A stretch of DNA of 64,000 bases, taken from assembly GCA_018292915.2 (NCBI GenBank), contig JACVVK020000496.1:181001-245000 (forward strand). The letters are read 5' to 3'. Positions within the stretch are counted from its first letter, which is position 1; each line of letters opens with the position of its first letter. The stretch comes from Batillaria attramentaria (lineage: Eukaryota > Mollusca > Gastropoda > Batillariidae). This document shows, one piece after another, positions 6,827 through 64,000 of the stretch. The notes under the pieces were generated by a model. That model was not told where the DNA came from, did not search any database, and saw only the letters and a list, made by a program, of their open reading frames with translations. The translations under genes and the position numbers were made by a program.

Positions 6827-7029
6827 CGGGTGTGTGGGTGTGTGGGTGCTCCAGACGTGAGAGCGGCCGTGGCGCTGTGTGTGTGTAGTGACGTCATGTC
6901 TGACCGCACCACGCCCTGGCACGTGGACGCCGCTGTACTCGGGAAACTGGACAGTTGGTGGACACAGCGCGTGGCGTGTAGAACGGACCCCACAATGTCA
7001 CGTGATCTGTATGAAACACTTGTCAGCAG
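6827..7029 (+). CDS. Unit 1 exon B
   Basis: The exon is 203 bp, from a TTTTTCAG acceptor to an AGCAG/GTGAGG donor, phase 0 in and phase 2 out. It encodes the linker between nuclease and helicase (VGAPDVRAAVALCVCSDV ... WHVDAAVLGKLDSWW). It is almost invariant between units, in contrast to exons C-E. Confidence 0.75.
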
Positions 7030-14250: not shown

Positions 14251-14389
14251 TTGTATGCCCCTGTGTAAGTGTGCACGATTGCGTATGGTATGTGCGTGAA
14301 TGTGATTGTGAGTGTGAATGTGTGAGTACATGGAACGCAAGACAGGGTCGTGACAAGATACTTATCTTGTTACTAGTAGTGTGTTCGCC

Positions 14390-23754: not shown

Positions 23755-25155
23755 GTCAGAAACTCTCTTTGTCTGCACAATTTATCATGATGATGCGATG
23801 ATGCGTGTACTTTATTGTACACAACGGAGGCTGAGACATACCAAGTGACTATTTTTGGTTTATTTTGTTTCATTTTATTTTCATTTCGTAGACTCTGTAA
23901 CTTCTACCCCGTTCAGACGAGCAGCTCCTATTACACTGTATTACGGTTGGTTGGCTACCTGGGGTTTATCGTCCACGCCACAACGAGATGATTGCAGACG
24001 GCTCTAGGGGGCAGGATATGGGGGATAGGGATAGCTACTTTAACTGTACAGTCCAGCTGAACACGAATTCAATCCAGTCAGATTGCCAAGTCGGCCCCAT
24101 TTTATATATATCCTTGACTGTATTGGACAAGTTGCACAAACAGATTCATCTCACAGTCAGTGGAAGCGGGGCAACGTGAAAAAGGCCTGTACGAATTTTG
24201 GCCCTGTCGGGATTCGAACCCGGGACCTTTCGATCTCGAGTCCAACGCTCAAACCGTTGAGCCACCGACTTCATCACCATTTGCTTTTGAGTGTAAACTG
24301 TCAAGTGACGATGAATACGATCCGTTTTTCAGCTGGTGTGTGGGTGTGTGGGTGCTCCAGACGTGAGAGCGGCCGTGGCGCTGTGTGTGTGTAGTGACGT
24401 CATGTCTGACCGCACCACGCCCTGGCACGTGGACGCCGCTGTACTCGGGAAACTGGACAGTTGGTGGACACAGCGCGTGGCGTGTAGAACGGACCCCACA
24501 ATGTCACGTGATCTGTATGAAACACTTGTCAGCAGGTGAGGAAGCCTATCATGCAATATTCCAGCCGTTAGTTAGTTTGTGCTGAAGCAGGAAACGTGAA
24601 GTTTGTTGACTGTACAAAGTATATACGTGTTTGAATACAGATTACTTTCATTGTACAGTTACAGACATTGTATTGTACTTTGTCCACACGGCCACAAGCC
24701 TATCAGTGTGCAGCGCTTCATACAACTAGTAGTGGTAGTAGTAGTAGTAGTAGTCGCGGCAGCAGTAGTAGAAGTGGTATTTATCGAAAAAATGATAAAA
24801 ATCTTTTATTTTTTTTCTCGGAGTGAACGTTTACTGCGTTTCATTTTCCGCTCAGCAAACAGACTCCGACCAATTCAAACAACAACAGCAACAACAACAA
24901 GAGCAACAGCAACAACAACAACAACAACAGTTGTATTTTGTCGATACGGGGAGTGGCATATGAGCGCACAACGCTTCATACCTTGAAAATGTTTATTATT
25001 ATTATTATTATTATTACGCATCACAATCTTCTTTCATATACATGCACAGTGTAGTTCTTCTCGTTATAAACATTTATCAAAATATTTCATTTTTGTTTCA
25101 CTAAACAAGCATATTGTAAACAATTGAAACAATCACAATTTAAAAACAAACTGTT

Positions 25156-28867: not shown

Positions 28868-29875
28868 GGAAAACTAATAGAGAAGTAGTTAATACTTAGT
28901 TCGTAGAAAAGTAATGATGAACTTTGGCTTTAAAGAGATGAGAGGAGTAAGTAGACTGAACATGAGATGGGAGATTATTCCATAACTGTGCTCCTGAGTC
29001 AGAGAGACTTGATTTGAACAAGTCTAGCCTGGGGCGTGTAACGAAGAGACCGTTCCTCGAAGTGCTGTACCCGCTGTTGCAAGGTCTAATCAGTTTAGAC
29101 AAGTAGTTGGGCGCTTTACCATTGACAATTTTGTGCATCATGATGCATTTATTTAAAGACCAGATGTTTATCAAGTGTTAGACAGTCTAAAGCCGTGATC
29201 TTTTCATCAGTGGTTAGGGAGATGTCAGGGAGGATGAGTTTCATAGCGCGTCGGTACAGAGAATTCAATTTTTTGAGATGGAGATCTCCACAGTTATCCC
29301 AAAGGGATGAAGAATAATCAACATGTGGTTTTACATATGCATTAAAAAAATAGCTTCCGCGTCTTCAGGTCAATGATTGTCTTTAACTTAGATAACAGAA
29401 AGAGTTTTTGAGAGACAGTTTTGCATACATTATCGAGGTGAGGCTGCCATTTAAACTGGTCATCCACTGTTACCCCTAACAGGCAGTGTTTACTAACCTG
29501 TTCTGTTCTGACTGTGTCATAAGAAAGGTCAAGATGTAAAGGATGGAGCTGGTGTTTTTGGCGCGTTGTAAGTACCATGCTTTTTGTTTTAGATGGATTG
29601 ACTATCATACTATTATGGTCACACCAGCGAGAGATATCGTGAAGATTCTGCTGTAAACTACTGTTTATTTTTGACATGCTAGTGCCAGATGAGTGGATGG
29701 TAGAATCGTCAGCGAACATTCCCCCCCCCCCCCCCCCCTTTTTTTTTCTTTTTCTTTCTGGAACCTCAGTTGCATGCAGGCCACTCAAAACCACTTTTTT
29801 TTTTCAATTTTTTTTTTTTGGCTGATCGGCCTCTCTTCAATGGTTCCACACTGTTTTAAATTAATGCGTTTGTAA

Positions 29876-32800
29876 TTAGTACATGGACAGATGTCTTAAC
29901 TGAGTTTCCTTTTCGAACATGCTTATTATGTTTGTAGGTGTACCGTATCTGTATTTACTTATACACATTTTGCCAATTAAAATTACATGATTAAGAAACT
30001 GACATTTCTCCTTAGAGATGCCGCCCTTGTCCGTTATACCAGATAGTACATGTACAGCATTCAGAACAATACAATGCCCAAATTTACAATTAATAATATT
30101 TTCAATGTGTTTCCATAATGCCTTCACACGCTTACATTCAAACAGAAAATGCTCAATATAGTCGAGCTGTTCTGGCTGGTTTTCACTTTCGGTTATTCCT
30201 ATTTTATACAGAAGGATATTAGTAGGATAAATATTGTGAAAACTTTTCCATTGTAACTCATGTAATCTTGTTTCAGTTGTAGTCTGATATGCGAGTTTCC
30301 AGTGGGCTTGGTTAATATCGGTATTAAACTTGTAACGCCAAAAGTGAATAACACAAGGTGGGCTGTAACGTTTCTGTACAATCTGTTTACGAATAATTTT
30401 GGCTGAGGTAATCTTTTCTCCATTGAGACAAAGACCCAATTGCCTTTCTGTTTGCATTTGTGCATAGTCTGGGTTTTCTTTTCAGAAGTTTGTAACCGCG
30501 GAAGATACTACTATATATTCTAAGCATAAGCTAGGCAGTGGACCAATTAGCTCTTCAATTTGTAACAGAGACATAATTCTATTTGCCAGTAGTAAGTCAT
30601 TTACATAGGTAATACCTTTCTTGGCCCACCTTCTAAAGTAAATAGGTATGGATTGATACAATATACGACCATTGTTCCATATGCATGTCATATTAAATTC
30701 AGTACTTGTCTTTGGAGTTGTGTTGTGCGTTAGCCAGGTTCGTATTACTGAGGACCAGAAAGTTGATTTCACATACTCAAGCCCTTTAAATCTGGAGTAC
30801 TCAATGGGATTATTAAAACATGCTAAATTTACCCCAAAATTGCTCAACCATATATTTGGAATCTGTGTCCATGTAGTGTCAGGATTTGTGTTGGAGAGTT
30901 TTATCATCCAATTGCAGAGAAACGATTCTTGCATGATGCACATGTCGATCATTTTTATACCTCCCTTTTCTGTTTCGCTGTTAATTAACACTCTTTTAAC
31001 TTTTTCAAATGCTTTTTTGTTACAGTTCTTTTTTCTCCATAGGAATCTGTATAAAACAGTATTTCTTTCTTTCAAAGCGCCCTCAGGAATACGAATTGCT
31101 TGCATTACACGTATCAACTGAGATATGAGATAGCACTTGATAATGCATAATTTTGCTGAAAGTCCCAAGTTCCTTTTTTCCCAGCTTGATATAATCTGCT
31201 TAATTTTTTTTATCATTCGTTCCTTCCAGTTGAGTTCAATTTCCGAAGCACAGCAGTTGCTGCTAAAGTATATACATGTACCCCAAATTTTAATCTGTTC
31301 CCACCACCACCAAGCCACATGGCTTCCGTTTTATGTTTGTTTAACCTTAATCCTGAAAATACTGAAAATATTTCTAGTGTTTGTAAGACACTCTGTATGT
31401 CCTGTATGTCTCGCAGGAACATAGTAACGTCATCTGCGTAAAGCAGGGTCTTTATTATACGTTGTGTGTCGAAAGCTAGACCTTTGACGTTTTCACTTTG
31501 CCTAAACCGTATTGCCAGAAGTTCTATGCCGATAGTGAAGGCAAGACATGAAAATGGGCAACCCTGTCTAATTCCGGATTTAATTTCGAAGTCGTCAGAC
31601 AGCCATCCGTTGTAACCAATACAGCTTCCTGTTTGATTAAATAATGTATAGACCCAATGAATGAAGTTTTCACCAAAGCCAAATTTTCTAAAAGCATACA
31701 GCATGTATTTTTGGAGATACTGTCAAAAGCTTTTTGGAAATCCAGCGCTAGTAAAATACCAGTCTTTTTTTTAATCTTACAGTATTCTATCACATCATCA
31801 ATAGTTCGTATAGTAGTTGATACATTTCTTCCTTTGATGTACCCAACCTGATCTCCATGTACCAACTTGTCAATAACTTTACACACTCTACTAGCAAGAC
31901 ATTTTGCCAGGATTTTATAATCTGTATTAGTTAATGAAATTGGTCTCCAATTTGAAAGCTTGTTTTTCGGAAGATTTTTACCTTTGTGTATCAGTGTCAG
32001 AACTGCAGATGTTTGGGTGTATGACAAGGATCCTTTTTGGAAGGATTCGTTAAAGACTGGACGATAACGTTTCTGAGTTTTGACCAAAAGAACTTAAGGA
32101 ATTCTGTGGTGAGTCCATCTAAGCCTGGGGAAGAACCATTTTTTAACATTTTTAAAGCCTGTGAGGCTTCTTCAACTGTTATCAAACCCTCACAATTTTT
32201 CATTTCCTCTTCTGATAAGCATGGGACATTACAGTCTTTTATAAATGCATCAACCTTGTTTTCAATCGGAGCGTCAGACGTATCTCGATTGTACACAGTT
32301 TCAAAAAAACGTTTTTGTTCTGTTAAAATGTCTAATTGGTCAGTCAAAAAAGTTCCATTTTCCGTCTCAATGCTAGAAAATAATTTTGCATTTGCACGAG
32401 ATTTTTCTAGATTTAAGAAATATTTTGTGTTTTTTTCCCCCTCCTCAATCCATTTTACTTTGGATCTGGTCTGAGCACTCTTTAGACGTTCATGTTCCAA
32501 AAGATCTAATGAAAATTTCAGATTTTCCCGATTTTGTAGCAAAAGGGCGTTTTGGGGTTCTTTCGCTAAACGGGTCTCACATTCATTAAGTTTTGCTGAT
32601 AACTCAACTATATCTATTCTTTTTGTGGATTGCACGATTTTTGCTATATTCAATTGATTCAGTTTTAATTTTTAATTTCAGCATCTCCCATTTTTGTTCT
32701 GCTGTTTCGTAGATTTCACAATTGAGAAAAGTGTCAATAACTAGATTCATTTTATCAATAAATTTTTTCTCTCTGAGTAAGGAGTTATTGAACTTCCAGT

Positions 32801-33538
32801 AGCCTGGACCTCTTTTTATTTTATCAAATCGTAAACAGAGAAAAATTCCCCTATGGTCCGACGTAGGTACAGAGAAAAAATTAATCTCCGATGCTTTGTC
32901 CAAAGCTGCGTCATTTACGAATATGTAGTCCAATCTCCGGGCGACGAAATTGTCATTAGTTTTTCTCGACCAGGTGTACTCCCGGGTGTCTGGGTTATTT
33001 ACTCTCCATAGATCAGTGAGTTCGCACTCATTTTTAAAACTATTGAAATCATTTACCACGGCCGAGGGATGTTTCTCTCCACTTATTATGTCGAGATCAT
33101 TGTTCATGACTGCATTAAAATCGCCACATACAATAATGCGCTCATAGTTGCAATTTTGTATTGTTCTTGTTAAGAAGTGAAAAAAATCTCTATTGTCTTT
33201 TTGACTGGGTGCATATACATTAAAAACACAGGTTTCTTCGTTTTCAACTCTCACGTTGATTGCCAAGATCCTGGAATCAGTAACATGAGAGGACCATTCA
33301 AACGGAAAGTGCTTTCTTATCAATATTACTTGTCCTTTGCTGTGTGTAGCCCCAACAGAATACACTAACTCCCCTCCCCATTCATTCTTCCATGCATCTG
33401 CTACATTCTGGGTAATATAAGTTTCTTGTTTCATATTATATCATACTTTTTTTCCTTGAAAAGTCTAAATAGCTTTTTTCGTTTCACTCTATTTCGTAGT
33501 CCACGTACATTCAACGAAATGATTTGAAGGATGTCCAT
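29876..33538 (-). pseudogene. LINE ORF2 (endonuclease-reverse transcriptase), frameshifted
   Basis: The frame starts with ATG at 33538-33536 (MDILQIISLNVRGLRNR), the first endonuclease motif. It shifts by one base near 33434. Further endonuclease motifs are VCGDFNAVMNNDLD and SDHRGIFL. The reverse transcriptase includes NWRPISLTNTDYKILA, LALDFQKAFDSI, GIRQGCPFSCL and LLYADDVTMFL. The C-terminal region (about 29876-30457) has HFLFECKRVKALWKHIENI, typical of L1/Tx1-type proteins. Breaks occur near 32640, 32060, 31620, 31270 and 30470. About 1220 codons in total, normal for the class. Confidence 0.85.
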
Positions 33539-33635
33539 TTAAAGTAAATAAAGTAAATAATTACATCACAAATCAATCGGAATGTCCGGGGGACGGGCTT
33601 GGGTCGTCAGGAAGTCAAGAGATAATTGGGCAAGA

Positions 33636-34676
33636 TCACTTCACGGAGTCGTCGTCGTCGTCGTAGTCATCGTGATCGTTTGCAAGAGCGGTAAGTCGGT
33701 CAGAGATGCGTCGCTGAGCGTGCAGGGCCTGACGTGAATGCTTGTGACTCTCTGGGCTGCTCTTGTCTGTCGGTCGGCGGCGTTTCACGGACTCCGAACG
33801 GCTACGCGGCGGGACGATACCGAGCGATGAGGAGATGCTACTCTGTCGCAGCTTCGCACGTGCGGACTCTCGGGCGTCACTGTTTAAAGCTGTATTTTCG
33901 ACAGCCGCATTAGACGTCTCCACCGCCCCTGACCCCTGACCTACACCCTCTACGTCGGGCCTCTCGCTACCTGCTTCTGTCTGCTGCAGCACTGGCGAAA
34001 TGATGTCCGTGCGTGTAGCAAACTCACATGCCGGGTCACCTCGCTTGTGTCCACTCTCTCTGCATGCTCGGCACACAACCTTGTTCGTGCACCCTGATAC
34101 ATGGTGCCCTTCTTCCAAACACTTTGAGCAAACCAATTTGCGCTTTGCTTGCTCTTTGTGGTAAACGGATGCCGAGAAGAAGCTGACAGTCATAGTCTTT
34201 TCAAGGGGGGTTGTTGGCACTGTTATGAAAACGAACCTTCGTCCTGTTAGAAACCGGGTGAGCTTGTTGTCATTGTCCCTCGCTCTCTCATGTTTTATTT
34301 CGGACCTCAACTCACACCCTATAGCAGAGAGAGAATGTTCAATCTCCGAGTCGGCTACAGAAATGGGCAACCTGTCTATGTACACTTTTGTGGAGGGTTT
34401 TTCTTCTCCGGTGTTGTCTCGGAGTGTGTAAGGGTTATTTTCACATACCTGCAGAGTTACGTTCCGTAACCGTATGCCTTTGATTAGAAGCTCGTTCCTT
34501 GCCTCACGGGTGGTAGGGTAGATTCTCCACAAACCTCTAATCTCTTGTGCGCCGACGACGGTGCCCACACCGGCGGTACGCTATGCGGCTAGACACATTT
34601 CCAAGACTGTAGGACGCTGCTCCATCGCATCTGGAATATCTCGCCTTTTCAGGAAAACAGGCAGTGCTGTAGACAT
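33636..34676 (-). pseudogene. LINE ORF1 (nucleic-acid binding), one premature stop
   Basis: The natural start is ATG at 34676-34674 (MSTALPVFLKRR). After 31 codons there is TAG (34583-34581), then the same frame stays open to 33636. The protein has an N-terminal fold region, two CCHC-type zinc knuckles (CSKCLEEGHHVSGC and CRACRESGHKRGDPAC) and a polar, basic tail ending in an Asp-rich stretch. It would bind element RNA in the ribonucleoprotein. Confidence 0.8.
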
Positions 34677-34885: not shown

Positions 34886-35093
34886 TGACGTGGCGCTGGC
34901 TGACAGTGACAGAGTGACGGTGGCAGAAGTGGGAAGTGTAGCCGGCCTAGAGCGGAGGGTCGTGGTCTGGTTGCCGTGCAGGAGTCAGGATGATGATGAT
35001 GCCGGGGACACTGACGATGTTGTGGAGGCGAACGACAGAGTGCTTGTGATTTCCCGCTGCAGCACCCAGCTGGTGATAATTGAGACTGGGTGA
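34886..35093 (+). pseudogene. Exon E fragment of a lost unit
   Basis: It begins in the middle of exon E (VALADSDRVTVAEVGS), immediately after the 5' end of the LINE. Motif V-like AGLERRVVVWL and motif VI-like VISRCSTQLVII are kept. The last codons are replaced because about 230 bp of 3' flank are missing (IIETG then stop). The variable codons differ from all other units (S, D, D, V, N and L where unit 1 has L, E, Y, Y, S and H). It is a remnant of a fifth gene between units 2 and 3. Confidence 0.85.
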
Positions 35094-39064: not shown

Positions 39065-40268
39065 GTTTACCTGTCTATACACAAATAACAGTTTCCTGAT
39101 GTCTCTTTGTCTTCGTGTTTACCTGTATATACACAAATAACAGTTTCCTGATGTCTCTTTGTCTTCGTGTTTACCTGTCTATACACAAATAACAGTTTCC
39201 TGATGTCTCTTTGTCTTCGTGTTTACCTGTCTATACACAAATAACAGTTTCCTGATGTCTCTTTGTCTTCGTGTTTACCTGTCTATACACAAATAACAGT
39301 TTCCTGATGTCTCTTTGTCTTCGTGTTTACCTGTCTATACACAAATAACAGTTTCCTGATGTCTCTTTGTCTTCGTGTTTACCTGTCTATACACAAATAA
39401 CAGTTTCCTGATGTCTCTTTGTCTTCGTGTTTACCTGTCTATACACAAATAACAGTTTCCTGATGTCTCTTTGTCTTCGTGTTTACCTGTCTATACACAA
39501 ATAACAGTTTCCTGATGTCTCTTTGTCTTCGTGTTTACCTGTCTATACACAAATAACAGTTTCCTGATGTCTCTTTGTCTTCGTGTTTACCTGTCTATAC
39601 ACAAATAATAATAATAATAATAATGGTATTGTATAGGCGCTTTACCCAATTTCATGAATCGGCTCAAAGCGCCGCGAACTGAACCCAACACGCACGCTCA
39701 CGTGAATCACACGCATTCTCTCACACACTGGACATAAACACATTACAATCACGTGGTGCGAAGGGTCAGCTCAGCTATTGAAATATCGGAATTTAGAATT
39801 GCATTTATTCTTCAAATTTGGTGGGCTGAACATTTCCAAAGCAGAGGGGGAGGAAGCCGGAGTACCCGGAGAGAACCCCCGACGATCGGCCCGAATTAAC
39901 GGTGCCACATACGAGAAGGAAACATTCTTTGCCCCGAGTGGGACTCGAACCCCCCACCTCTCGCATTGGTGACAGGTCTCATAACCGCTAGACCACCGAC
40001 CGCCCCGACTGTCTATGCACAATAACAGTTTCCTGATATCTCTTTGTCTTCGTGTTTACCTGTCTATACACAAATAAGAGTCCCCTGATGTCTCTTTGTC
40101 TTCGTGTTTACCTGTCTATACACAAATAGCAGACCCCTGATGTCTCTTTGTCTTTGTGTTTACCTGTCTATACACAAATAACAGCCCCCTGATGTCTCTT
40201 TGTCCTCGTGATTACCTGTCTATGTACAAATAACAGTTTCCTGTTGTCTCTTTGTCTTCATGTTTACC
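39065..40268. repeat. 52-bp minisatellite split by a SINE
   Basis: About ten nearly identical copies (39065-39606) of a unit containing TTTACCTGTCTATACACAAA, then the SINE, then about five more diverged copies (40010-40268). The array ends about 270 bp before unit 3 exon A. The homogeneous left part has probably expanded recently. Confidence 0.95.
39607..40009 (-). mobile_element. tRNA-derived SINE, type d
   Basis: On the - strand the tRNA-like head (complement of GGGACTCGAACCCCCCACCT, near 39939-39958) is followed by a body with the complement of GGAAGCCGGAGTACCCGGAG and a (TTA)n tail. It is inserted in the 52-bp array; imperfect CTGTCTATRCACAA copies on each side may be a target duplication or just the array. 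Confidence 0.75.
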
Positions 40269-40541: not shown

Positions 40542-42206
40542 ATGTCGGAAACACCGCCAGCATCAGATGTGGAAACTGGACACACTCGCCCAGCCACGGT
40601 CACCGGCTCAACGGCACTACTTTCCCCAGTCACCACCTCACCAGCAGCCACCACCCCAGTCACCACCTCACCAGCAGCCACCACCCCAGTCACCACCTCA
40701 CCAGCAGTCACCACCCCAGTCACCACCTCACCAGCAACCACCACCCCAGTCACCACCTCACCAGCAACCACCACCCCAGTCACCACCTCACCAGCAACCA
40801 CTACACCAGTCACCACCTCAAGCTCAGTGGCCACGGGACAGACTTTGCAGAATGAGTGGAGACGCGTGGTGACGTCACTATACCGTGACCTTGACACCCG
40901 AACTTACTGTGTACCGCCCTACATCATGAACCGTGTGCCGTATGATAGAGACACTGTTGCCGGGCAACCGGCCCTGGTGTTGCGACCTTTACCGGGATTT
41001 GTGACGTCAGGCAGTCCTCCGTTTGTCTCACCTCCAGCTAACAGTACTAATGCGACGGGACAACAAGCAACTCTCACAACAACGACTTCACAACAACCAA
41101 CTCCGCCGCAGCAAGCTTTACACCAAAAGCAGCCAGTGTCTGCAATCCCAAACACACCTCAAGGATCAGCCCAGCAGACAAGCCATCACACACCTCAAGG
41201 ATCAGCCCAGAAGACACGCCAACACACACCTCAAGGATCAGCCCAGCAGACAATGCAACACACACCTCAAGGATCAGCCCAGAAGACACGCCAACACACA
41301 CCTCAAGGATCAGCCCAGCAGACAGGCCAACACACACCTCAAGGATCAGCCCAGCAGACACGCCGTCACACACCTCAAGGATCAGCCCAGCAGACACGCC
41401 ATCACACACCTCAAGGATCAGCCCAGCAGACACGCCAACACACACCTCAAGGATCAGCCCAGAAGACACGCCAACACACACCTCAAGGATCAACCCAGCA
41501 GACAATGCAACACACACCCCAAGGATCAACCCAGCAGACACGCCGTCACACACCTCAAGGATCGGCCAAGCAGACAAGCCAACACACACCTCAAGGATCA
41601 GCCCAGCAGACAAGCCAACACACACCTCAAGGTTCAACCCAGCAGACAAGCCAACACACACCTCAAGCAACTCCGAGTCACTCGTCAACGCACAGTCTGT
41701 GGACCCGAGAGCACCATCCAGTCGCTCAGCCAATCAACGTGCAGGAAACTGACTCACGTGACGACTTCGCCCAACAGCACGTGCTGTACTGTCTACAGAC
41801 GCTAGGAGAGCAGCGACAGGAAGCCATGTTTGTGATGTCGTCACTAGACTTCACTGACTACCTGAACAAACTGGATGCTACCCACGCTGCTCAGTTCCCG
41901 CTACCCGGGGATCTTCCCGCCACACAGCGAGAGGGCGACTTTGACGTCATTGTCATACACCGCAAATACGGCGTCCTGCTCGGGGAGATCAAGTCAGTGG
42001 GTATCCATGGCAACAACCCAACAGACAAAGCTGTGGCTGACAAGGTCAGCAAGGCCGTGAAACAGCTGGACAAGTGTGAGAGGGTTGTGAATCACGTGAT
42101 GAGTGACGTGGCGCCGGGAGTGAGTGTCCGCAAAACGCTGATCCTGCCCTACATCAGCAGGACGCAGCTACAGCACGTGTTGGATGGAGACAGTCAGCTG
42201 GCACAG
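40542..42206 (+). CDS. Unit 3 exon A
   Basis: The exon has 555 codons with 14 copies of the Gln-rich repeat (41153-41660), in which residues eight and nine vary most (SH, RQ, MQ, GQ, RR, RH). Ends at CAG/GTCAGA. Confidence 0.85.
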
Positions 42207-45200
42207 GTCAGAAACTCTCTTTGTCTGCACAATTTATCATGATACATGTACTTTATTGTACACAGCGGAGGCTGACACATACCAAGGGACTATTTTATTT
42301 TATTTTATTTTATTTGTGTATTTTTGATTTTTTTTTTTTCGTTTTGTACACTCTGGGCCTTGTACAGCCTTCAGACGAACACGCTCCTTATGCTGTAACA
42401 CTGTATTACAGAAACACGGCTTCCTTTTACAGTGCCGTGCTTTTCTTCGTGAAAGTGTCTATAAATGGACCAGCTACCAAAATCCTTCGTTAAAAAAAAA
42501 AAAGAAAGAAAAAAAAAAAACTTTTCAATTGTTTCAACGTTTTGAGATTTTATTAAAAGGCCACCTTGACTTGTATGTTTACTCTACGCATTGTGTACCT
42601 GTCAACCATTTGCTTTTGAGTGTAAACTGTCACGTGACGATGAATACGCTCCCTTTTTCAGCGGGTGTGTGGGTGTGTGGGTGCTCCAGACGTGAGAGCG
42701 GCCGTGGCGCTGTGTGTGTGTAGTGACGTCATGTCTGACCGCACCACGCCCTGGCACGTGGACGCCGCTGTACTCGGGAAACTGGACAGTTGGTGGACAC
42801 AGCGCGTGGCGTGTAGAACGGACCCCACAATGTCACGTGATCTGTATGAAACACTTGTCAGCAGGTGAGGAAGCCTATCATACAATATTCCAGGCGTTAG
42901 TTAGTTTGTGCTGAAGCAGGAAACGTGAAGTTAGTTGACTGTACGTAGTATATACGTGTTTGAATACAGATTACTTTCATTGTACAGTTACAGACATTGT
43001 ATTGTACTTTGTCTACACGGCCACAAGCCTATCAGTGTGCATCGCTTTATACAATCATGATGATAATGATAATATTAATTATTATTATTCATCGAAACAA
43101 ATGATAATGCTGTTTTATATAGTTTTTCTCGGAGTAAACATTTGCTACATTTCATTTTTCCCTCAGCAAACAAACTGTGACCAATTTAAATAATGACAAA
43201 AATTTCAAAAACTAACAACAACCACAACAACAACAACATCGGTATTTTGTCGATTCGGCGAGTGGCATAATTATAAGTGTACAACGCTTCATACCACGAA
43301 AATTATTATTATTATAATAATTATTATTGTTGTTGTTGTTGTTGCTGTTACTATGCATCACAATCTTTTGTATACATGCGCTGTGTAGGTCTCGTAATAA
43401 ACATTTATCAGATTTTTTTTCACTGAACAAGCACATGATACTGTAAACAATCGAAACGACTGTTTAAAACAAACTGTAACAACAACAACAACAACAACAC
43501 TTGTTTACCTTTTCTGTATGTTGACAGGTTTGTGGGCCCGGCAACAACAGTCCGTGTTCACTGCGTCATCCCCCCGCGCGTGGAGGTGCGGACACTGGGG
43601 GAGGCCGTGTCAGAACTCGGCCGGCGACTTGCGCTTCTCGTCCTCACCCCCGGGCAACTCGACCTGCTGACCAGATCACCAGCACACGTCTGTCTGACCG
43701 GCCCCCCGGGCACCGGCAAGACTGTAGTGCTGGTCGTGAAGGGGCTGGTCGGGGCGCGTCAGGGACATCCTGTGGTTGTACTCAGTCTCTGGCCTGCCAG
43801 CCTTGCGGCGTCACGCCTGATACATCAGCAGCTGGTGATGATCCCGCAGGCAGACCCCACAGCACAACAAGCGGCCGCCGCCGTGCACTTCCTGCACTAT
43901 GACCTGTGGAACCGGCCTGGAGATGTGGAGGCGGCGCTTCAGACACTTCAGTCACTGGTGCCGACAACACGGGGACAACAGCTTCACGTGCTGATAGACG
44001 AGGCCGACTTTACATACAGGTAGGTGACTACAGTACTGCACGTGTAGGTGTGACAGGTGACAAGATATAGGTAAAATGTCACGCTACACTTGTGTTACCC
44101 ATAACGTGACAGGCACGATACGTGGAAATGACAAAACATGAATCATTTTTGATCAAGTCTTCTTCACCAACAAGACGATGATGTAGAGTTTATTAATGGA
44201 GTGATAATGGTGTCGTCATGACAACAGCCTGTTCCTGCAGCACGTGCTGGTTTCTCAACAAAAAACTGTTTATTTGCGATAGTCTCCGGAGAAATGTTAT
44301 TGCTACTTTAACCTACTCTTTTACACCTGTGATAATCGTTGCAGGGAGCCGGGATAGCCGAAATGTAGAGCGTTGGACTTTAAATGCTCGGGTCGTGAGT
44401 TCGAATCCCGGCTGGAGCCGAATATTTGTGCTGGCATTTTTCTCGTTGCCCCGCCTTTGCTATCAACCATACGCGGTGGAAAAGGACGTTAAACTCCAGA
44501 ACATCCCCCATCCCTCCAACCAGTGATAATCCTGAATGGGTTGGCATGTAAAGAACGATAACTGTGGTTCGACCTTGGTGCCGCACATAACCTGGTTCTC
44601 TCCCTCACTTTACTCCATCCAAGTATTATAACAGTGGTTATGTTATCCTGTTATCAAATCTCTGTCAATGTCTAAGATTGGAGGCACACATTTTTTTTTT
44701 TCTGTTGAGCCACACCACCATATCGTGTACGCATACGTGATGCTGTCTACAGACTTCAACATGTCAAGGACCACTTGCAAATTTGGCTAAAATTCCTGGA
44801 AGATGTCCGTGCAGCACATGGTGGTTTTTCAGCTTCAGCAAGCTTTGCAGGATGCATTGTTAACCCTTTAACACTTTCACAGCAAAAAAAAAGAAAGATT
44901 CCTTGATCTCTATTTTTTTGTGAATTCTTAAAAATTAGACCTGTCTGTCAAGGTGGTCCTTGACTTATATTGAAGTCTGTACATCAGTTGTGACACGTGA
45001 TCACGGCTGACGTCAGGATTTTCGTTTTCCCAGTGAAATGAAGCGAGTATCGATGATTGGCTCCTTTCAGTGATCGACTGACCAGGCAACTTGACTGTTA
45101 CCTATAAACACTAGACAAGGTACACAATCGAAGTTGTAAAACCATTATTTATCTCCCCTCTCGTAATGATTGTTACTCGTACGTCTTATGTCGCCGGAAG

Positions 45201-46016: not shown

Positions 46017-47515
46017 GACCTATCACTTGTACTTCTTTATACACTATACTTATATACCGCTTCAGATTCTTATCATTGAAAGTAAACTAATTAACACTAA
46101 TACTAATTAACTAATACTAATACCACGCATGTAACTAATAATAACTCATCTCACTAATATAGTACTAACTATGTGACTTTCACTCTGCTACAAGTGCTGT
46201 CTATTGATCGTGATGTACATAACGATAGTGTACAGTCCCTGACAAAAAGTAAACGACAGTGGTCGATACAAGTGTCGTGACTCCCTCCCCGTTCTCTGTA
46301 ACAGTGATGTCGGCCCGGCCACACAGAGACTGGTGAGAGAACTGCTGGCAGCCTGTGGACCGCGCCTCTCTCTCTGGGCCGCTAGTGTGGCCAACACCGA
46401 CATCCCTACAGAACTACAGGCCGAGCCGCTCACGGTGCCCCTAAGATCATGTCCGGCTGTTGTTAGAGAAGTGGCGAGGGCAGTCAGCAGCTTTAGTGAC
46501 ATCCACAACTACAGTGACAGCGGCACGCCTTCCCCCAGTGACGGGCCCCGGGTCATCCGGTTACGTCATGAAGGCGGGGACCACAGCGGACGATGGCCCG
46601 TGGAGTGCTGGAGATGTGGAGCGATGGTGGCGCGAGTGTTGACGGAGGACCTCCATGTGGGTGTGACGGGTATGTGTGTGTGTTGTGGCTGTCCTTTCAG
46701 GTACCAAGAACAGAGCATTGCATTAATTTGTATATCCAAACGTTGTATCAGTTCACACATTTTGTAATTAAATCATCAAACAGCTTTACTTCCTATATCA
46801 AGTTTAACCCTTCCGTCCCTTTCTCGCCCAAGGAGCCGAGTATACAACCAACCAAGTAAACAAGCACCCCCCCCCCCTTCCTCTGCTGTGAGTAAAGAAA
46901 GAAATCTTCATTACTCACTGTACGTGTTCATCATACGTGGGCACACAACATCATTCCGTTTTCTGACCGTGCATAGTGAGTAAGGTTGATACGAGTTCTG
47001 CACGTAGATATCACGTGATCAGCACGTGTTTTATGTGTTGTCGTTGTCTGACGGCAGGTGCCAACATCAACCCCACCAGTATCGGCACAACCACCAGTCC
47101 CCCGCGTCTCCAGTACCGTGACGTCCTCGTGCTGACGGGTAGTGAAGAGCTTCGTGAGGAGACGAGAGACGTCAGAGGTCAGGTGACGTCACAAGCCTGT
47201 GGTGTGGTGCGCGGCCTTCGCTCTGCCGGCCTCCCGGTGGGAGTTATTGGATGGGAGAGAGACGATGAGGCGAGGTGGGAGAGAGACGTGTGTGACGTGG
47301 CGCTGGCTGACAGTGACAGAGTGACGGTGGCATCATGGGGAAGTGTATCCGGCCTAGAGCGGAGGGTCGTGGTCTGGTTGCCGGGCAGGGGGCAGGGTGA
47401 TGATGATGCCGGGCTCACTGACGATGATGTGGAGGCGTTCGACAGAGTGGTTTTGATTTCCCGCTGCAGCACCCAGCTGGTGATAGTTGATGTCCCGCGT
47501 GATGAAAATAAATAA
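40542..47515 (+). CDS. Unit 3: nuclease-helicase gene, intact (1060 aa)
   Basis: Join of 40542-42206, 42662-42864, 43528-44019, 46305-46669 and 47058-47515. Layout by residue: Thr/Ser/Pro repeats about 27-95; conserved segment about 103-160; Gln-rich array about 205-372; nuclease about 395-550 with D466 and D468, E482 and K484 as the likely metal-binding and catalytic set; Q motif near 662; Walker A 681-688 with K687; DE at 780-781; motif V-like GLE at 1007-1009; motif VI arginine 1044. The nuclease-then-helicase order resembles bacterial NERD/UvrD fusions. Its role may be nucleic-acid surveillance, but that is inference. An ATG five codons upstream (40527) is also in frame; 40542 is preferred because MSxxPPASD is shared with units 2 and 4. 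Confidence 0.85.
42662..42864 (+). CDS. Unit 3 exon B
   Basis: 203 bp, same protein as unit 1. It is preceded by a TTTTTCAG acceptor. Confidence 0.82.
43528..44019 (+). CDS. Unit 3 exon C
   Basis: 492 bp with GPPGTGKT and LIDEADF. Compared with unit 1 over the segment after Walker A, about 13 codons change the amino acid, including a three-base change (Asp to Trp, SLWPASLA) and Tyr to Trp (DLWNRP). Confidence 0.85.
44344..44520 (+). mobile_element. tRNA-derived SINE, type b
   Basis: Orthologous to the insertions at 26222 and 60910; B box GAGTTCGAATCCCGG is intact. Confidence 0.8.
44750..44979. mobile_element. 230-bp MITE with TA target duplication
   Basis: The ends CAGACTTCAA and TTGAAGTCTG begin inverted repeats of about 30 bp sharing TCAAGGACCAC. 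TA lies at 44748-44749 and 44980-44981; units 1 and 2 have a single TA at this place. A TA duplication points to the Tc1/mariner superfamily. Unit 4 carries the same insertion. Confidence 0.85.
45206..46197. other. 1-kb block in intron C-D (unit 3 copy)
   Basis: Same block as 9464-10462, nearly identical, with a shorter TG tract. Confidence 0.6.
45443..45862 (+). CDS. Open frame of 139 codons, unknown function (copy 2)
   Basis: Differs from copy 1 only by His for Pro in KIIHNYN. No family recognised; coding status is unproven. Confidence 0.3.
   Translation: MSRLTVTTELLNSYKIQVTNNPMYNDQSYDNKFDDSVYKIIHNYNSTKDTVEHCFIDNLVHLVQWHIRYLWNKKLQQNQFRWFMTAEPFLKQAVTRMVYRADTQYAVSVSTSTVITSQDAESMLSVEQKKGKTGLLCLS
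46305..46669 (+). CDS. Unit 3 exon D
   Basis: 365 bp. The junction codon gives Ser (AG/T) instead of Arg as in the other units. Glutamine is present where unit 1 has TAG. Variable stretch ARAVSSFSDI. Confidence 0.82.
47058..47515 (+). CDS. Unit 3 exon E
   Basis: 152 codons plus stop boundary as in unit 1; seven codons between motifs V and VI differ in amino acid from unit 1, with a single silent change (GAC/GAT). AATAAA at 47507-47512. Confidence 0.85.
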
Positions 47516-53995: not shown

Positions 53996-54350
53996 GGGGT
54001 AGGTTGCCAAGTACCCTGATATGAAGACCACTGTGTACACAGCGGTTTTGTTGTTGTTGTTGTTGTTATTTACCAACTTTTAGAGGAGAGGCTTGGCACT
54101 TACGTGTTACTAGCCCACCCACAATGTCCCTTTGGCTGTGAGTGGTAATGAGGGGAATCCGTATTGTGATTGGGTTCAAATATTGACTATACACAGCAAC
54201 TATTACAAATGACGCCGTTGCAGCAGGTATTGTGCACACACTTCAAGTTTGACTGCTGGATATGTTAGGCCAAACACCCTGCGGTGGTCCAACGAAATGA
54301 CAAGAGATTTCCCTGTAGCAGCTCTCAGTTATTAAATCTTCCTTTTTCCA

Positions 54351-54845
54351 TATAGATGCCAATTCTCTTACTGATGGGGACCGGGCTGACATATAGACGC
54401 CAATTGTCTTACTGATGGGGACCGGGCTGACATATAGACGCCAATTGTCTTACTGATGGGGACCGGGCTGACATATAGACGCCAATTGTCTTACTGATGG
54501 GGACCGGGCTGACATATAGACGCCAATTGTCTTACTGATGGGGACCGGGCTGACATATAGACGCCAATTGTCTTACTGATGGGGACCGGGCTGACATATA
54601 GACGCCAATTGTCTTACTGATGGGGACCGGGCTGACATATAGACGCCAATTGTCTTACTGATGGGGACCGGGCTGACATATAGACGCCAATTGTCTTACT
54701 GATGGGGACCGGGCTGACATATAGACGCCAATTGTCTTACTGATGGGGACCGGGCTGACATATAGACGCCAATTGTCTTACTGATGGGGACCGGGCTGAC
54801 ATATAGACGCCAATTGTCTTACTGATGGGGACCGGGCTGACATAT
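54351..54845. repeat. 41-bp minisatellite, 12 copies
   Basis: Nearly perfect copies; the array at 17698-17989 has seven, so copy number has changed since the spacer duplicated. Confidence 0.95.
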
Positions 54846-56716: not shown

Positions 56717-58729
56717 ATGTCGAAAAGGCCTCCAGCATCAGATCCTGGACCAGGGAACACTCACCCTGCCACGGTCACCAGCTCCACGTCACTCCCGTCC
56801 CCAGTCACCACCTCACCAGCAGTTACCTCCCATGTCACCGCATCACCAGCAGTTACCGCCCTTGTCACCACCTCACCAGCAGCCACCACATTACCAGCAG
56901 CCATCGCTTCTGTCACCACTTCACCGGCAGTTACAGCACCAGTCACCATCTCACCAGTAGTTCCCGCGCCAGTCACCATCTCACCAGCAGCCATCAGATC
57001 CATCACAACATTACCAGCAGACACCGCCTGTGTTACCACTTCACCAACAACCAACGCCCCTGTCACCACCTCACCAGTAACTACTACACCAGTCACCACC
57101 TCACCAGCAACTACTACACCAGTCACCACCTCACCAGTAACTACTACACCAGTCACCACCTCACCAGTAACTACTACACCAGTCACCACCTCACCAGTAA
57201 CTACTACACCAGTCACCACCTCACCAGTAACTACTACACCAGTCACCACCTCACCAGTAACTACTACACCAGTCACCACTTCAAGTACAGCGACTACACG
57301 ACAGACTTTGGAGAATGAGTGGAGACGCGTGGTGACGTCACTATACCGTGACCTTGACACCCGGACTTACTGTGTACCGCCCTGCATCATGAACCGTGTG
57401 CCGTATGATAGAGACACTGTTGCCGGGCAACCGGCCCTGGTGTTGCGACCTTTACCGGGATTTGTGACGTCAGGCAGTCCTCCGTTTGTCTCACCTCCAG
57501 CTAACAGTACTAATGCGACGGGAAAACAAGCAACTCCCACAACAACGACATCGCAACAGCCAACTCCGCCGCAGCAAAAACAGCCAGATTCTGCAATCCA
57601 ACACACACCTCAAGGATCAGCCCAGCAGACAAGCCATCACACACCTCAAGGATCAGCCCAGCAGACAAGCCAACACACACCTCAAGGATCAGCCCAGCAG
57701 ACAAGCCATCACACACCTCAAGGATCAGCCCAGCAGACAAGCCATCACACACCTCAAGGATCAATCCAGCAGACAGGCCATCACACATCTCAAGGATCAG
57801 CCCAGCAGACAGGCCAACACACACCTCGAGGATCATCCCAGCAGACAGGCCAACACACACCTCAAGGATCAGCCCAGCAGACAAACCACCACACATCTCA
57901 AGGATCAGCCCAGCAGACAGGCCAACACACACCTCAAGGATCAGCCCAGCAGACAAGCCGTCACACACCTCAAGGATCAACCCAGCAGACAAGCCAACAC
58001 ACACCTCGAGGATCATCCCAGCAGACACGCCAACACACACCTCAAGGATCAGCCCAGCAGACAAGCCAACACACACCTCAAGGATCAGCCCAGCAGACGA
58101 GCCAACACACACCTCAAGGATCAACCCAGCACACAAGCCATTACACACCTCAAGGATCAGCCCCGCAGACAAGCCAACACACATCTCAAGCAACTCGGAG
58201 TCACTCGTCAACGCACAGTCTGTGGACCCGAGAGCAGCATCCAGTCGCTCAACCAATCAACGTGCAGGAAACCGACTCACGTGACGACTTCGCACAACAG
58301 CACGTGCTGTACTGTCTACAGACGCTAGGAGAGCAGCGACAGGAAGCCATGTTTGTGATGTCGTCACTAGACTTCACTGACTACCTGAAGAAGCTGGATG
58401 CTACCCACGCTGCTCAGTTCCCGCTACCCGGGGATCTTCCCGCCACACAGCGAGAGGGCGACTTTGACGTCATCGTCATACACCGCAAATACGGCGTCCT
58501 GCTCGGGGAGATCAAGTCAGTGGGTATCCATGACAACAACCCAACAGACAAAGCTGTGGCTGACAAGGTCAGCAAGGCCGTGAAACAGCTGGACAAGTGT
58601 GAGAAGGTTGTGAATCACGTGATGAGTGACGTGGCGCCGGGAGTGAGTGTCCGCAAAACGCTGATCCTGCCCTACATCAGCAGGACGCAGCTACAGCACG
58701 TGTTGGATGGAGACAGTCAGCTGGCACAG
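56717..58729 (+). CDS. Unit 4 exon A
   Basis: 671 codons beginning MSKRPPASDPG. TTSP(V)TTTPV repeats number about eight in perfect tandem (57061-57285). Its conserved segment is closest to unit 1 (LENEW, PPCIMN) but the next part is closest to unit 3 (FVSPPANSTNATG). Confidence 0.85.
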
Positions 58730-61700
58730 GTCAGAAACTCTCTTTGTCTGCACAATTTATCATGATACATGTACTTCATTGTACACAACTGAGGCTGACA
58801 CATACCAAGTGACTATTTTTATTATTTTTTTTTTCAATTTCGTAGAATGTAACCTGTACCCTGTACACCGTTCAGACGAGCACGCTCCTGTTACATTGTA
58901 GTACAGAAACACTGCTTTCTTTCAAAGTGCCGTGCTTTTCATGTATGAACATGTCCGTGAAACTTTCTATAAATAGACCAGACACCCAGAGCCTTCGCCG
59001 CAAAGCAAATAGTTATTACGCTGACACGCGTCCCGTTATGTTAAATCTTGTCAAGTGTCGAATGCACGGGTTTAGTGCATTCATTCATTCATACAAAAAT
59101 ATCCCTTTTTCACGAATTTTTATTTAAAGGCCACCTTGACCTGTATGTTTACTTTACACAGGTTGACCTCATCACCCAGTCAACCATTATTTTGCTTTTG
59201 AGTGGAAACTGTCACGTGACGATGAATACGCTCCCTTTTTCAGCGGGTGTGTGGGTGTGTGGGTGCTCCAGACGTGAGAGCGGCCGTGGAGCTGTGTGTG
59301 TGTAGTGACGTCATGTCTGACCGCACCACGCCCTGGCACGTGGACGCCGCTGTACTCGGGAAACTGGACAGTTGGTGGACACAGCGCGTGGCGTGTAGAA
59401 CGGACCCCACAATGTCACGTGATCTGTATGAAACACTCGTCAGCAGGTGAGGAAGCCTATCATACAATATTCCAGGCGTTAGTTAGTTTGTGCTGAAGCA
59501 GGAAACGTGAAGTTAGTTGACTGTACAAAGTATATACGTGTTTGAATACAGATTACTTTCATTGTACAGTTACAGACATTGTATTGTACTTTGTCCAATG
59601 TCCACACGGCCACAAGCCTATCAGTGTGCAGCGCTTTATACAACGATGATGATACTGATAATAATAATAATTATTATTCATCGAAACAAATGATAATACT
59701 GTTTTATATAGTTTTTCTCGGAGTAAACATTTGCTACATTTCATTTTCCCCCAGCAAACAAACTGTGACCAATTAAAATAATGATGACAATTTCAAAAAC
59801 TAACAACCACCACCACAACAACAACAACATCGGTATTTTGTCGATTCGGCGAGTGGCATAATTATAAGTGTACAACGCGTTATACCACGAAAATTAATAT
59901 TATTTTTGTTGTTGTTGTTGTTGTTGTTGTTGCTGTTACTTTGCATACTTTGCTGTGTAGTTCTCGTAATAAACATTTATTAGATTTTGTTCACTGAACA
60001 AACACATGATACTGTAAACAATCAAAACAACGACACTTTAAAAAGAAACTGTAACAACAACAACACTTGTTAACCTTTTTTCTATGTTGACAGGTTTGTG
60101 GGCCCGGCAACAACAGTCCGTGTTCACTGCGTCATCCCCCCGCGCGTGGAGGTGCGGACACTGGGGGAGGCCGTGTCAGAACTCGGCCGGCGACTTGCGC
60201 TTCTCGTCCTCACCCCCGGGCAACTCGAACTGCTCACCAGATCACCAGCACACGTCTGTCTGACCGGCCCCCCGGGCACCGGCAAGACTGTAGTGCTGGT
60301 CGTGAAGGGGCTGGTCGGGGCGCGTCAGGGACATCCTGTGCTTATACTCTGTCTCCATCCTGCCAGCCTTGCGGCGTCACGCCTGATACAGCAGCAGCTG
60401 GTGATGACCCTGCAGGCAGACCCCACAACACAACAAGCGGCCGCCGCCGTGCACTTCCTGTACTATGACCTGTACAAGCGGCCTGGAGATGTGGAGGCGG
60501 CGCTTCAGACACTTCAGTCACTGGTGCCGACAACACGGGGACAACAGCTTCACGTGCTGATAGACGAGGCCAACTTTACATACAGGTAGGTGACTACAGT
60601 ACTGCACGTGTAGGTGTGACAGTTGACAAGATATAGGTAAAATGTCACGCTACACTTGTGTTACCCATAACGTGACAGGCACGGTACGTGGACATGACAA
60701 AACATGAATCATTTTTGATCAAGTCTTCTTCACCAACAAGACGATGATGTAGAGTTTATTACTGGAGTGATAGTGGTGTCGTCATGACAACAGTCTGTTC
60801 CTGCAGCACGTGCTGGTTCCTCAACAAAAAACTGTTTATTTGCGATAGTCTCCGGAGAAATGTTATTGCTACTTTAACCTACTCTTTTACACCTGTGATA
60901 ATCGTTGCAGGGAGCCGGGATAGCCGAAATGTAGAGCGTTGGACTTTAAATGCTCGGGTCGTGAGTTCGAATCCCGGCCGGAGCCGAATATTTGTGCTGG
61001 CATTTTCTCGTTGCCCCGCCTTTGCTATCAACCATACGCGGTGGAAAAGGACGTTAAACTCCAGAACATCCCCCTCCCTCCAACCAGTGATAATCCTGAA
61101 TGGGTTGGCATGTAAAGAACGACAACTGTGGTTTGGCCTTGGTGCCGCACATAACCTGGTTCTCTCCCTCACTTTACTCCATCCAAGTATTATATTTATA
61201 ACAGTGGTTATGTTATCCTGTTATCAAATCTCTGTCAATGTCTAAGATTGGAGGCACACAATTTTTTTTTTCTGTTGAGCCACACCACCATATCGTGTAC
61301 GCATACGTGATGCTATCTACAGACTTCAACATGTCAAGGACCACTTGCAAATTTGGCTAAAATTCCTGGAAGATGTCCGTGCAGCACATGGTGGTTTTTC
61401 AGCTTCAGCAAGCTTTGCAGGATGCATTGTTAACCCTTTAACACTTTCACAGCAAAAAAAATTTGAAAGATTCCTTGATCTCTATTTTTTGTGAATTCTT
61501 AAAAATTAGACCTGTCTGTCAAGGTGGTCCTTGACTTATATTGAAGTCAGTTGTGACACGTGATCACGGCTGACATCAGGATTTTCGTTTTCCCTGTGAA
61601 ATGAAGCGAGTATCGATGATTGGCTCCTTTCAGTGATCGACTGACCAGACAACTTGACTGTTTCCTATAAACGCTAGACAAGGTTCACAATCGAAGTTGT

Positions 61701-62955: not shown

Positions 62956-64000
62956 AAAACTGAATTTTATCAACTTCAAATCATATAATTAAATGAAGTG
63001 GGTACAATTCAGTTTTGAAAGTTGGAAACTCCGACTTTTTGCCGCTGCTCTGTGCCGACTCTGATGCGACGTCTGAATCGTAGCTATGCGACGCCGAAGT
63101 GCACCCGCTGCCGGCGGGGCGAGGGCTCGAGCCCCTCCACAACTTTTCCACTGACGAAAAAGTCCATAGACGGTCTTTTGAACTTTCACTTTTTTCGGTG
63201 GCATGATTCGTCACAGAGAAAGCGAATCCGATCGGTAACAAGAGCACTGACTCTAAAATCTTTCGTCCATAGTTTCGAGCGCAGAAGCGGAAAAAGATGG
63301 GGCACGTTCATTACGCGAGAGTGGCTGTAGTAGCCGCCGATCTGCAGCAATAGACAGTTAACGCCTGCGAGCGTTAAACAGAACCAAAAACAGAACCGAA
63401 CTGAACGCGGCCAAGGCAAGGGAGAACACTCACTCGATCACAACAACAAGCCTATAGGCGTACGCACGGTAGTGCAGAGGTAGTGCGTCAAGCTAAGCAC
63501 AGATCGCGTTCATAATGCTTCAACGTACCCCCTCGAATTTTTTTTAGTACGTAAATTTTTACTTCAGTGCGTAAATTACGCACAGACGCACAGTTTAGGG
63601 AGCCCTGTAATAATAACTCATCTCACTAATATAGTACTAACTATGTGACTTTCACTCTGCTACAAGTGCTGTCTATTGATCGTGATGTACATAACGATAG
63701 TGTACAGTCCCTGCCAACAAGTAAACGGCAGTGTTCGATACAAATGTCATGACTCTCTCCCCGTTCTCTGTAACAGGAACGTCGGCCCGGCCACACGGAG
63801 ACTGGTGAGAGAACTGCTGGCAGCCTGTGGACCGCGCCTCTCTCTCTGGGCCGCTAGTGTGGCCAACACCGACATCCCTACAGAACTACAGGCCGAGCCG
63901 CTCACGGTGCCCCTAAGATCATGTCCGGCTGTTGTTAGAGAAGTGGCGAGGGGAATCAGCAGGTTTAGCGTCCACAACTACAGTGACAGCGGCACGCCTT
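56717..64000 (+). CDS. Unit 4: nuclease-helicase gene, 3' end outside window
   Basis: Exons at 56717-58729, 59244-59446, 60094-60585 and 63777 to beyond 64000. All frames are open. It has the longest Thr/Ser/Pro region and 16 Gln-rich repeats. Intron C-D carries a SINE, a MITE, the 1-kb block and an 895-bp transposon, which push exon D to the window edge. The encoded helicase keeps GPPGTGKT and DE. Exon E is not visible, so completeness cannot be judged. Confidence 0.8.
59244..59446 (+). CDS. Unit 4 exon B
   Basis: 203 bp with one amino-acid change against unit 1 (AAVELCVC). Confidence 0.82.
60094..60585 (+). CDS. Unit 4 exon C
   Basis: 492 bp with GPPGTGKT and LIDEANF. In the last 245 bp it differs from unit 1 at nine codons, all amino-acid changing and none silent. 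Confidence 0.85.
60910..61082 (+). mobile_element. tRNA-derived SINE, type b
   Basis: Same insertion as in units 2 and 3; B box GAGTTCGAATCCCGG is intact. Confidence 0.8.
61320..61548. mobile_element. MITE, Tc1/mariner-like, copy in unit 4
   Basis: Same insertion as 44750-44979. The right end has lost about eight bases between GAAGTC and CAGTTG, including the flanking TA. Confidence 0.8.
62011..62430 (+). CDS. Open frame of 139 codons, unknown function (copy 3)
   Basis: Identical in translation to copy 2. It lies in the 1-kb block (about 61765-63680 in this unit, interrupted by the transposon at 62713). Confidence 0.3.
   Translation: MSRLTVTTELLNSYKIQVTNNPMYNDQSYDNKFDDSVYKIIHNYNSTKDTVEHCFIDNLVHLVQWHIRYLWNKKLQQNQFRWFMTAEPFLKQAVTRMVYRADTQYAVSVSTSTVITSQDAESMLSVEQKKGKTGLLCLS
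62713..63607. mobile_element. 895-bp DNA transposon, hAT-like ends
   Basis: Terminal inverted repeats CAGGGCTCCCTAAA and TTTAGGGAGCCCTG (14 bp, perfect) are flanked by TAATA at 62708-62712 and 63608-63612. Units 1 and 3 show the empty site. CAGGG ends suit hAT elements, some of which make 5-bp duplications; the assignment is inference. A - strand frame at 62989-63204 starts MPPKKVKVQKTVYGLF and may be the remnant of a transposase N-terminus. A (TG)n tract fills 62874-62954. Confidence 0.85.
63777..64000 (+). CDS. Unit 4 exon D (partial)
   Basis: Acceptor GTAACAG, frame open with glutamine at the unit 1 stop position. The variable stretch reads ARGISRFSV, one codon shorter than in other units. 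It continues beyond the window. Confidence 0.8.

Follow-up and report, generated by a model that had tools for sequence, protein, structure and literature searches.

Diversifying selection within the helicase-like motor of a massively duplicated nuclease-helicase-like gene of the snail Batillaria attramentaria

Why should two copies of one gene in Batillaria attramentaria differ at several amino acid positions of a single exon and at none of its silent positions? The copies lie in a window of 64,000 nucleotides (contig JACVVK020000496.1, hereafter C496, positions 181001-245000; coordinates below are those of the window) and were compared over the second half of exon C in unit 1 (8464-8709) and unit 4 (60340-60585, + strand), the part that carries motif Ia, motif II and most of the variable codons of the exon. 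Across these 246 bases we found 11 base differences in nine codons (V/L, V/I, D/H, G/A, V/A, N/K, E/G, G/N, and E/Y, with G/N and E/Y being double-base changes) and zero silent differences, as originally noted. A further nonsynonymous difference, D/E, lies upstream in exon C and brings the count for the whole exon to 10 to 0. The exchange of Asp (GAT) in unit 1 for Trp (TGG) in unit 3 through three base changes was also confirmed. The pair formed by units 1 and 4 is extreme, not unique: 102 of 1035 pairs among 46 open copies are without a silent codon difference, and nonsynonymous differences outnumber synonymous ones in 1033 of the 1035 (medians 15 and 3).

Organization of the gene units

Units 1-3 are composed of five exons each, all on the + strand and separated by GT/AG introns; start codons were assumed. 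The predicted product of each unit has an N-terminal part rich in repeats, followed by a nuclease-like domain of the PD-(D/E)xK kind and then by an ATPase resembling SF1 helicases. In unit 1, exon 1 (1301-3142, 5' end not fixed) is followed by exons B (6827-7029), C (8218-8709, the comparison partner of unit 4), D (10572-10936), and E (11321-11778). The exons of unit 2 lie at 22411-23754, 24333-24535, 25217-25708, 26958-27322, and 27695-28176, and those of unit 3 at 40542-42206, 42662-42864, 43528-44019, 46305-46669 (exon D, motifs III and IV), and 47058-47515 (exon E, motifs V and VI). The joined frames are clean in unit 2 (961 residues) and in unit 3 (1060 residues), each ending in exon E. 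Unit 4 begins with exon 1 (56717-58729), which encodes a Thr-rich stretch and 12-residue repeats followed by the nuclease-like domain, and continues with exon B (59244-59446) and exon C (60094-60585), an open frame with AG/GT borders that encodes a Q-motif-like LTPGQ, Walker A, motif Ia, and a motif II DEA; the window end cuts this unit inside exon D (63777-64000, motifs III and IV).

Unit 1, as assembled, may be a pseudogene, because exon D contains an in-frame TAG at 10684-10686; units 2 and 3 are without this stop codon. Unit 2 differs from units 1 and 3 in exon E (27695-28176), where eight added codons, GVASWESF, precede motif V. The 36-bp (12-residue) repeat of exon 1 is present in 15.7 copies in unit 1 (2039-2603), 14.5 in unit 3 (41148-41667), and 16.6 in unit 4 (57594-58190); the repeat search of the window reported no such array in unit 2 exon 1. 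A 30-bp Thr-rich repeat in exon 1 also varies in number.

Size of the family

Judged from its genomic matches, the gene is massively duplicated. A protein search of the genome (715,342,989 bases, 863 contigs) with exon C yielded 545 candidates, of which 150 were scored, all at E ≤9.1e-10. At least 48 are near copies, 46 with open frames, and about 100 (102) further matches are more distant, some of them fragments. The near copies are distributed over contigs C496 (18), C334 (18), C277 (6), C454 (2), and C848, C279, C296, and C356 (one each). For the exon C set, 47 near copies were taken and one frameshifted copy (L073) was removed, giving 46; the 48th, on C277 and with 7 stops, was left out. 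These 46 copies are 84-100% identical to unit 3 at the protein level. With exon E as the query, the corresponding search returned 367 candidates, of which 150 were scored. Proteins of B. attramentaria with BaRGS names match the family locally at up to 99%. At one locus (L054, C496:278700-286200), exons D and E are each matched a second time in part, which may reflect an internal duplication.

Three unnamed records (P0093, P0107, and P0121) are contigs of 2.6-3.5 kb whose coding content covers 99-100% of the multi-exon query, pointing to spliced transcripts in some snail. A tblastn search of phage records with exon C gave no match. The words "helicase" and "expanded" are absent from the main text of the Batillaria genome paper (PMC10382545), and among the literature retrieved, mostly in the form of listings and abstract openings, no paper was recognised as describing this nuclease-helicase family.

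Selection on exon C

The strong diversifying selection originally proposed for exon C was borne out by site models on the 46 paralogs, by null simulations, and by sites defined in Littorina. Pairwise dN/dS among the 46 copies is 1.60 over the whole of exon C; it is 0.50 in the first 78 codons and 2.11 in codons 79-163. In codon site models run on the same 46 open copies, M2a was favored over M1a with ω2 far above 1: 2ΔlnL was 534 (ω2 16.8, 7.4% of sites) with an all-site tree and 995 (ω2 40.7, 5.6%) with a tree built from non-hypervariable sites plus intron, the ω values being rough because the in-house implementation fixes branch lengths up to scale and uses naive empirical Bayes. Nine codons reach a posterior of 1.0 under both trees, namely 86, 88, and 90 (in unit 4, 60350-60352, 60356-60358, and 60362-60364), 99 (60389-60391), 127 and 128 (60473-60478), 160 (60572-60574), and 162 and 163 (60578-60583). 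They overlap in part with the nine codons that separate units 1 and 4: codons 88, 90, 128, 160, and 163 exceed 0.9 under both trees and codon 84 does so under one, and codons 83, 94, and 149 do not reach that level. Invariance of Walker A, also noted originally, holds in most of the set: 44 of the 46 exon C copies have GPPGTGKT unchanged, and all 46 have the DE of motif II.

The 18 copies on C496 alone give a 2ΔlnL of 205, or 200.8 in the run that included the simulations. Null simulations mimicking this set reached 0.2-2.8 (4 runs) against the real 200.8, and those with forced recombination (four blocks with different genealogies) reached 0-7.5 (4 runs). A PHI-like recombination test on exon C was not significant (0.25). 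Since 44% of the informative site pairs are incompatible, the exon C tree is unreliable, and we therefore rely more on comparisons between pairs of copies and between species. In 23 disjoint closest pairs, exon C shows 268 nonsynonymous and 66 synonymous codon differences, which divide into 118 and 0 at the nine sites and 150 and 66 elsewhere; the nine sites were picked from the same Batillaria data, which favors nonsynonymous counts, and for this reason we used a site definition from Littorina only (see below).

Mutational hotspots, or gene conversion from donor copies, could in principle produce such a pattern without selection. The incompatible site pairs are in keeping with this, and per-site synonymous divergence in exon C (0.034) is lower than that of the downstream intron (0.092) and the upstream intron (0.21, with simple repeats inside), as homogenising conversion could cause. 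We consider the explanation very unlikely, however, in view of the distinct one-step codon pairs at the variable codons: 111 are nonsynonymous and 9 synonymous, whereas the opportunity ratio is 3.45. The excess persists (84 to 8) without codon 163, the third base of which is perhaps held by the splice donor. Nonsynonymous divergence at the eleven most variable exon C codons is 0.39, above both introns, the recombinant null simulations did not exceed 7.5, and the Littorina-defined sites stand at 134 to 1.

Selection on exons D and E

In exons C, D, and E, roughly 6-8% of the codons have dN/dS far above 1. Exon D (20 sequences) gave ω2 17.6 and 2ΔlnL 190, with positions 1, 2, 27, 29, 59, and 63-65, and exon E (20 sequences) gave ω2 16.4 and 2ΔlnL 314, with nine positions. 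These sets come mostly from C496, with 6 exon E copies from other contigs; one partly masked locus (exon D) and two frameshifted C496 copies (exon E) were left out beforehand, and the unit 1 exon D stop codon was scored as missing. The exon D and E sequences so selected all retain motifs IV, V, and VI, with PLRSCPAVV, GLER, and SRC.TQL each found in 20 of 20. A C..CG pair, a possible metal site in the second domain, is also kept in all 20 exon D sequences (for example 46305-46669), and exon D has a sub-threshold match to the PknG rubredoxin domain (E 0.002, 18.5 bits against a cut-off of 28.5).

Broken copies do occur: exon C is disrupted in 2 of 48 near copies, exon D in unit 1, and exon E by frameshifts in two C496 copies. 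The published assembly was made from PacBio reads and polished with Pilon (PMC10382545). One might thus invoke a relaxation of constraint on duplicates that are decaying, or errors made when a repetitive array was assembled and polished. Relaxation would bring ω near 1, not to 17-41, and the exon C frame is open in 46 of 48 copies, with motifs IV-VI intact in every evaluated sequence and the variable sites recurring in Littorina; we regard this alternative as exceedingly improbable. Assembly error in particular is an unlikely source of the differences, because largely the same positions vary in Littorina and 46 of the 48 near copies keep exon C open. Relaxed constraint and hotspots were accordingly rejected as main causes by the codon counts, the site models, the Littorina-defined sites, and the simulations.

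A parallel expansion in Littorina

Among the best 120 of 161 homologs, from a search that detects only relatives with shared exact words, the named ones belong to Littorina, Batillaria, Babylonia, Nucella, and Pomacea. We aligned 57 proteins, 56 from Littorina and one from Babylonia, and defined a Littorina cluster of 39 sequences, each >75% identical to >8 rows. Most Littorina proteins are 50-54% identical to unit 3; divergence among them is overstated, because the set includes isoforms and partial models and the database was thinned at 90% identity. The 39 Littorina sequences group as a clade (support 0.98) in a 121-row tree, as do the 46 Batillaria sequences, with weakly supported monophyly in the latter case (node support 0.17).

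Over 502 positions of exons B-E, site entropies in the two snails have a Spearman correlation of 0.32, and 18 of the top-30 variable sites are common to both, compared with 1.8 expected. Sites 389, 578, and 605 are variable in Batillaria and nearly fixed in Littorina, and sites 421 and 577 are strongly variable in Littorina and little so in Batillaria. On this protein evidence, Littorina saxatilis has an expansion of the gene separate from that of Batillaria, with largely the same positions varying.

Littorina-only sites were defined by entropy >2 bits (18 sites) or >1.5 bits (30 sites) and applied to disjoint closest Batillaria pairs (23, 10, and 10 for exons C, D, and E). At the 18 sites, these pairs have 134 nonsynonymous differences and a single synonymous one, and at the rest 464 to 133; the counts are 184 to 7 at the 30 sites and 414 to 127 at the rest. 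The remaining sites are mildly above the neutral expectation (1.48 and 1.39), so that some selected sites fall outside the Littorina set. To the extent that sequence evidence allows, strong diversifying selection on the family is established, and the combination of tandem expansion with ω above 1 at a subset of sites is that of a diversified repertoire.

Position of the variable sites in the helicase-like motor

Sites were numbered from INVQETDS of unit 3, and motifs were named by eye. On this map the nuclease-like domain spans approximately 1-158, followed by the Walker A Lys 290, motif Ia (~312-320), the DE of motif II (383-384), motif III (~413-420), motif IV Arg 437, motif V Gly 610, and motif VI Arg 647. 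Variable sites of the first half are 312, 314, 316, 325, 353, 354, 386, 388, 389, 391, and 392, and those of the second half are 417, 419, 449, 452-455, 578, 604, 605, 609, 623, 625, 631, 635, 639, and 643. They fall on, or next to, motifs Ia, II, III, V, and VI, with the catalytic residues conserved; Walker A, D476 and E477, R530, G693, E695, R696, and R730 (numbering of P0055, a Littorina homolog) are all at least 90% conserved in 33 homologs. Many of the variable sites come straight after predicted strands bearing SF1 motifs, and the edge after such strands is the ligand-binding edge of RecA-like folds. Sites 631, 635, 639, and 643 show the i+4 spacing of one helix face before motif VI. Compared with the rest of exons B-E, the top 20 variable sites are rich in Tyr and Phe (about 9-fold), Asn (3.9-fold), and His (2.3-fold), as binding surfaces often are.

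The best PDB profile match is to the SF1 helicase SMUBP-2 (E 2.3e-5), covering profile positions 366-468 only and placing 314-316 on the motif Ia APS. The match reflects mainly the P-loop region, since the arsenite ATPase ArsA, next in the same search, scores almost as well (E 2.8e-5). No curated Pfam helicase model passes for unit 3 and 7 homologs, the best being AAA models below the cut-off, and hhalign of the family with T4 Dda aligned 19 P-loop columns and no more. The order of SF1 motifs Ia and III-VI with their conserved Gly and Arg residues is accordingly a by-eye assignment, with no profile match over the second half.

SF1 helicases hold the single strand at motif Ia, at the end of the next strand, just after motif II, at motifs III and V, and along one helix face ahead of motif VI. 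Because the variable positions appear to match these places, we propose that the nucleic acid groove of the motor, as inferred from the motifs, is the variable recognition surface. PMC6451128 places H555 and F573 of PIF1 in its ssDNA channel; anchored on the motif V Gly, H555 would fall on site 606 and F573 beside sites 623 and 625. Site 606 itself has 2.25 bits in Littorina and is weakly variable in Batillaria, where the motif V sites are 604, 605, and 609. An equation of site 325 with PIF1 H269 by equal distance from Walker A was dropped, as the motif Ia alignment shifts by four residues.

The selection signal and the enrichment in Tyr, Phe, Asn, and His would suit any binding surface, including one for proteins. 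The variable surface might bind recognised pathogen proteins, or pathogen antagonists that occupy the groove, as in the arms races of restriction factors. That the sites track SF1 motifs and form no single outer patch would be easier to reconcile with a ligand in the groove, a point that is not decisive, and we judge protein binding to be somewhat unlikely while giving it appreciable weight.

The nuclease-like domain

The N-terminal part carries a GDFD...GExKS signature ahead of the SF1-like ATPase, and its putative catalytic-type residues D168, E182, and K184 (P0055 numbering) are at least 90% conserved in the 33 homologs. Among the four units of the window, this domain shows 3-7 residue differences in 158 per pair and 1-4 silent changes, far fewer differences than the helicase exons, yet with no strong constraint. 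In Littorina, four of its sites (3, 93, 100, and 106) exceed 2 bits. Variation is thus not confined to the helicase, given that the nuclease-like domain varies in Littorina and shows no strong constraint in the window units. The NERD model (PF08378) has no match in unit 3 and 0 matches in the genome search; one relative, P0134, is the sole homolog of the 7 scanned to pass the Pfam NERD cut-off (25.2 against 22.1 bits). PADLOC returned only weak P-loop and NERD-like matches, in three homologs.

Comparison with known systems and proposed role

On the by-eye motif assignment, the snail proteins would resemble SF1B helicases (UPF1/SMUBP-2, PIF1/RecD) in having a Q-like motif, Walker A, Ia, DE, the motif IV Arg, the motif V Gly, and the motif VI Arg in order. 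SF1B helicases keep their strand-contacting positions fixed, whereas the snail positions assigned to them are hypervariable, and no Pfam helicase model passes. NERD or PD-(D/E)xK nucleases are joined to helicases in bacterial NERD-helicases and, in eukaryotes, in DNA2. The GDFD...GExKS signature followed by an SF1-like ATPase, and the passing score of P0134, are likenesses to NERD-helicases; the differences are that unit 3 is without a NERD match, that PADLOC matches are weak, and that the snail has a multigene repertoire under diversifying selection. The Schlafen proteins SLFN11 and SLFN13, which according to PMC8875196 have antiviral roles, with positive selection on SLFN11 in primates, likewise combine a nuclease and a helicase within one protein, but they form small families with another N-terminal domain, and the SLFN-g3 helicase model (PF09848) did not exceed 15.1 bits, far below its cut-off of 24, in Pfam scans of the family proteins. 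Expansion in tandem clusters is shared with the lophotrochozoan RIG-I-like receptors (PMC8998645), as is positive selection, and with sea urchin SpTransformer (PMC10887614), as far as the available portions of these papers describe them. In contrast to these immune families, it is a limited set of sites inside an SF1-like motor that varies in the snail. RIG-I-like receptors are SF2 helicases with separate signalling domains.

From the expansion, the selection, and the nuclease-helicase make-up, we tentatively propose a repertoire of nuclease-helicases diversified in the groove and probably acting in defence, a reading that, taken as a whole, we hold at somewhat less than an even chance. Each paralog would bind its own target, most likely the nucleic acid of a virus or transposon; binding would drive the ATPase, and the nuclease would then act on the target. 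New copies would arise by tandem duplication and be pulled apart by selection, and the outcome would be a germline-encoded repertoire of nuclease-helicase receptors. The strand-contacting residues of SF1 motors are normally sequence-blind. In a bolder form, which we consider rather unlikely, these residues would have become a target-reading code in caenogastropods, forming a protein-only immune system, based on a helicase, that discriminates nucleic acids by sequence or structure, paralog by paralog.

Expansion and diversifying selection also mark genes of non-immune recognition, and a non-LTR-retroelement-like stretch lies within the array. The family could hence serve self/non-self or gamete recognition, or germline genomic conflict such as the control of transposons or rival paralogs. 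No adhesion or receptor domain passes the Pfam cut-off in the unit 3 protein and 7 homologs, and transposon control overlaps with the defence reading; a non-immune role appears distinctly unlikely.

To our knowledge, it is dedicated recognition modules that vary in large immune repertoires. Selection here lies inside an enzyme motor, at positions that are fixed in other helicases and that are largely the same in two snail lineages. If the groove reading is true, the family offers a natural collection of helicases whose specificities have changed, and the ability of an SF1 motor to read sequence or structure becomes a directly testable question. Molluscs are without antibodies, and the defence repertoire, if true, would provide them with a candidate new class of diversified intracellular sensors.

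Other features of the window

Between units 2 and 3, open frames resembling a non-LTR retroelement occupy 29342-34580 on the minus strand in several frames, with stretches that by eye resemble a zinc knuckle, an endonuclease, and a reverse transcriptase. A stray fragment of exon E (34886-35083) stands alone between the same units, with 91% identity over 198 bases to exon E of unit 3. The spacers also contain satellite-like arrays at 14377-15270, 17697-17988, 39065-39608, and 54349-54845, with periods of 71, 41, 52, and 41 bp, respectively; the 41-bp array is present in two spacers in unequal copy numbers.
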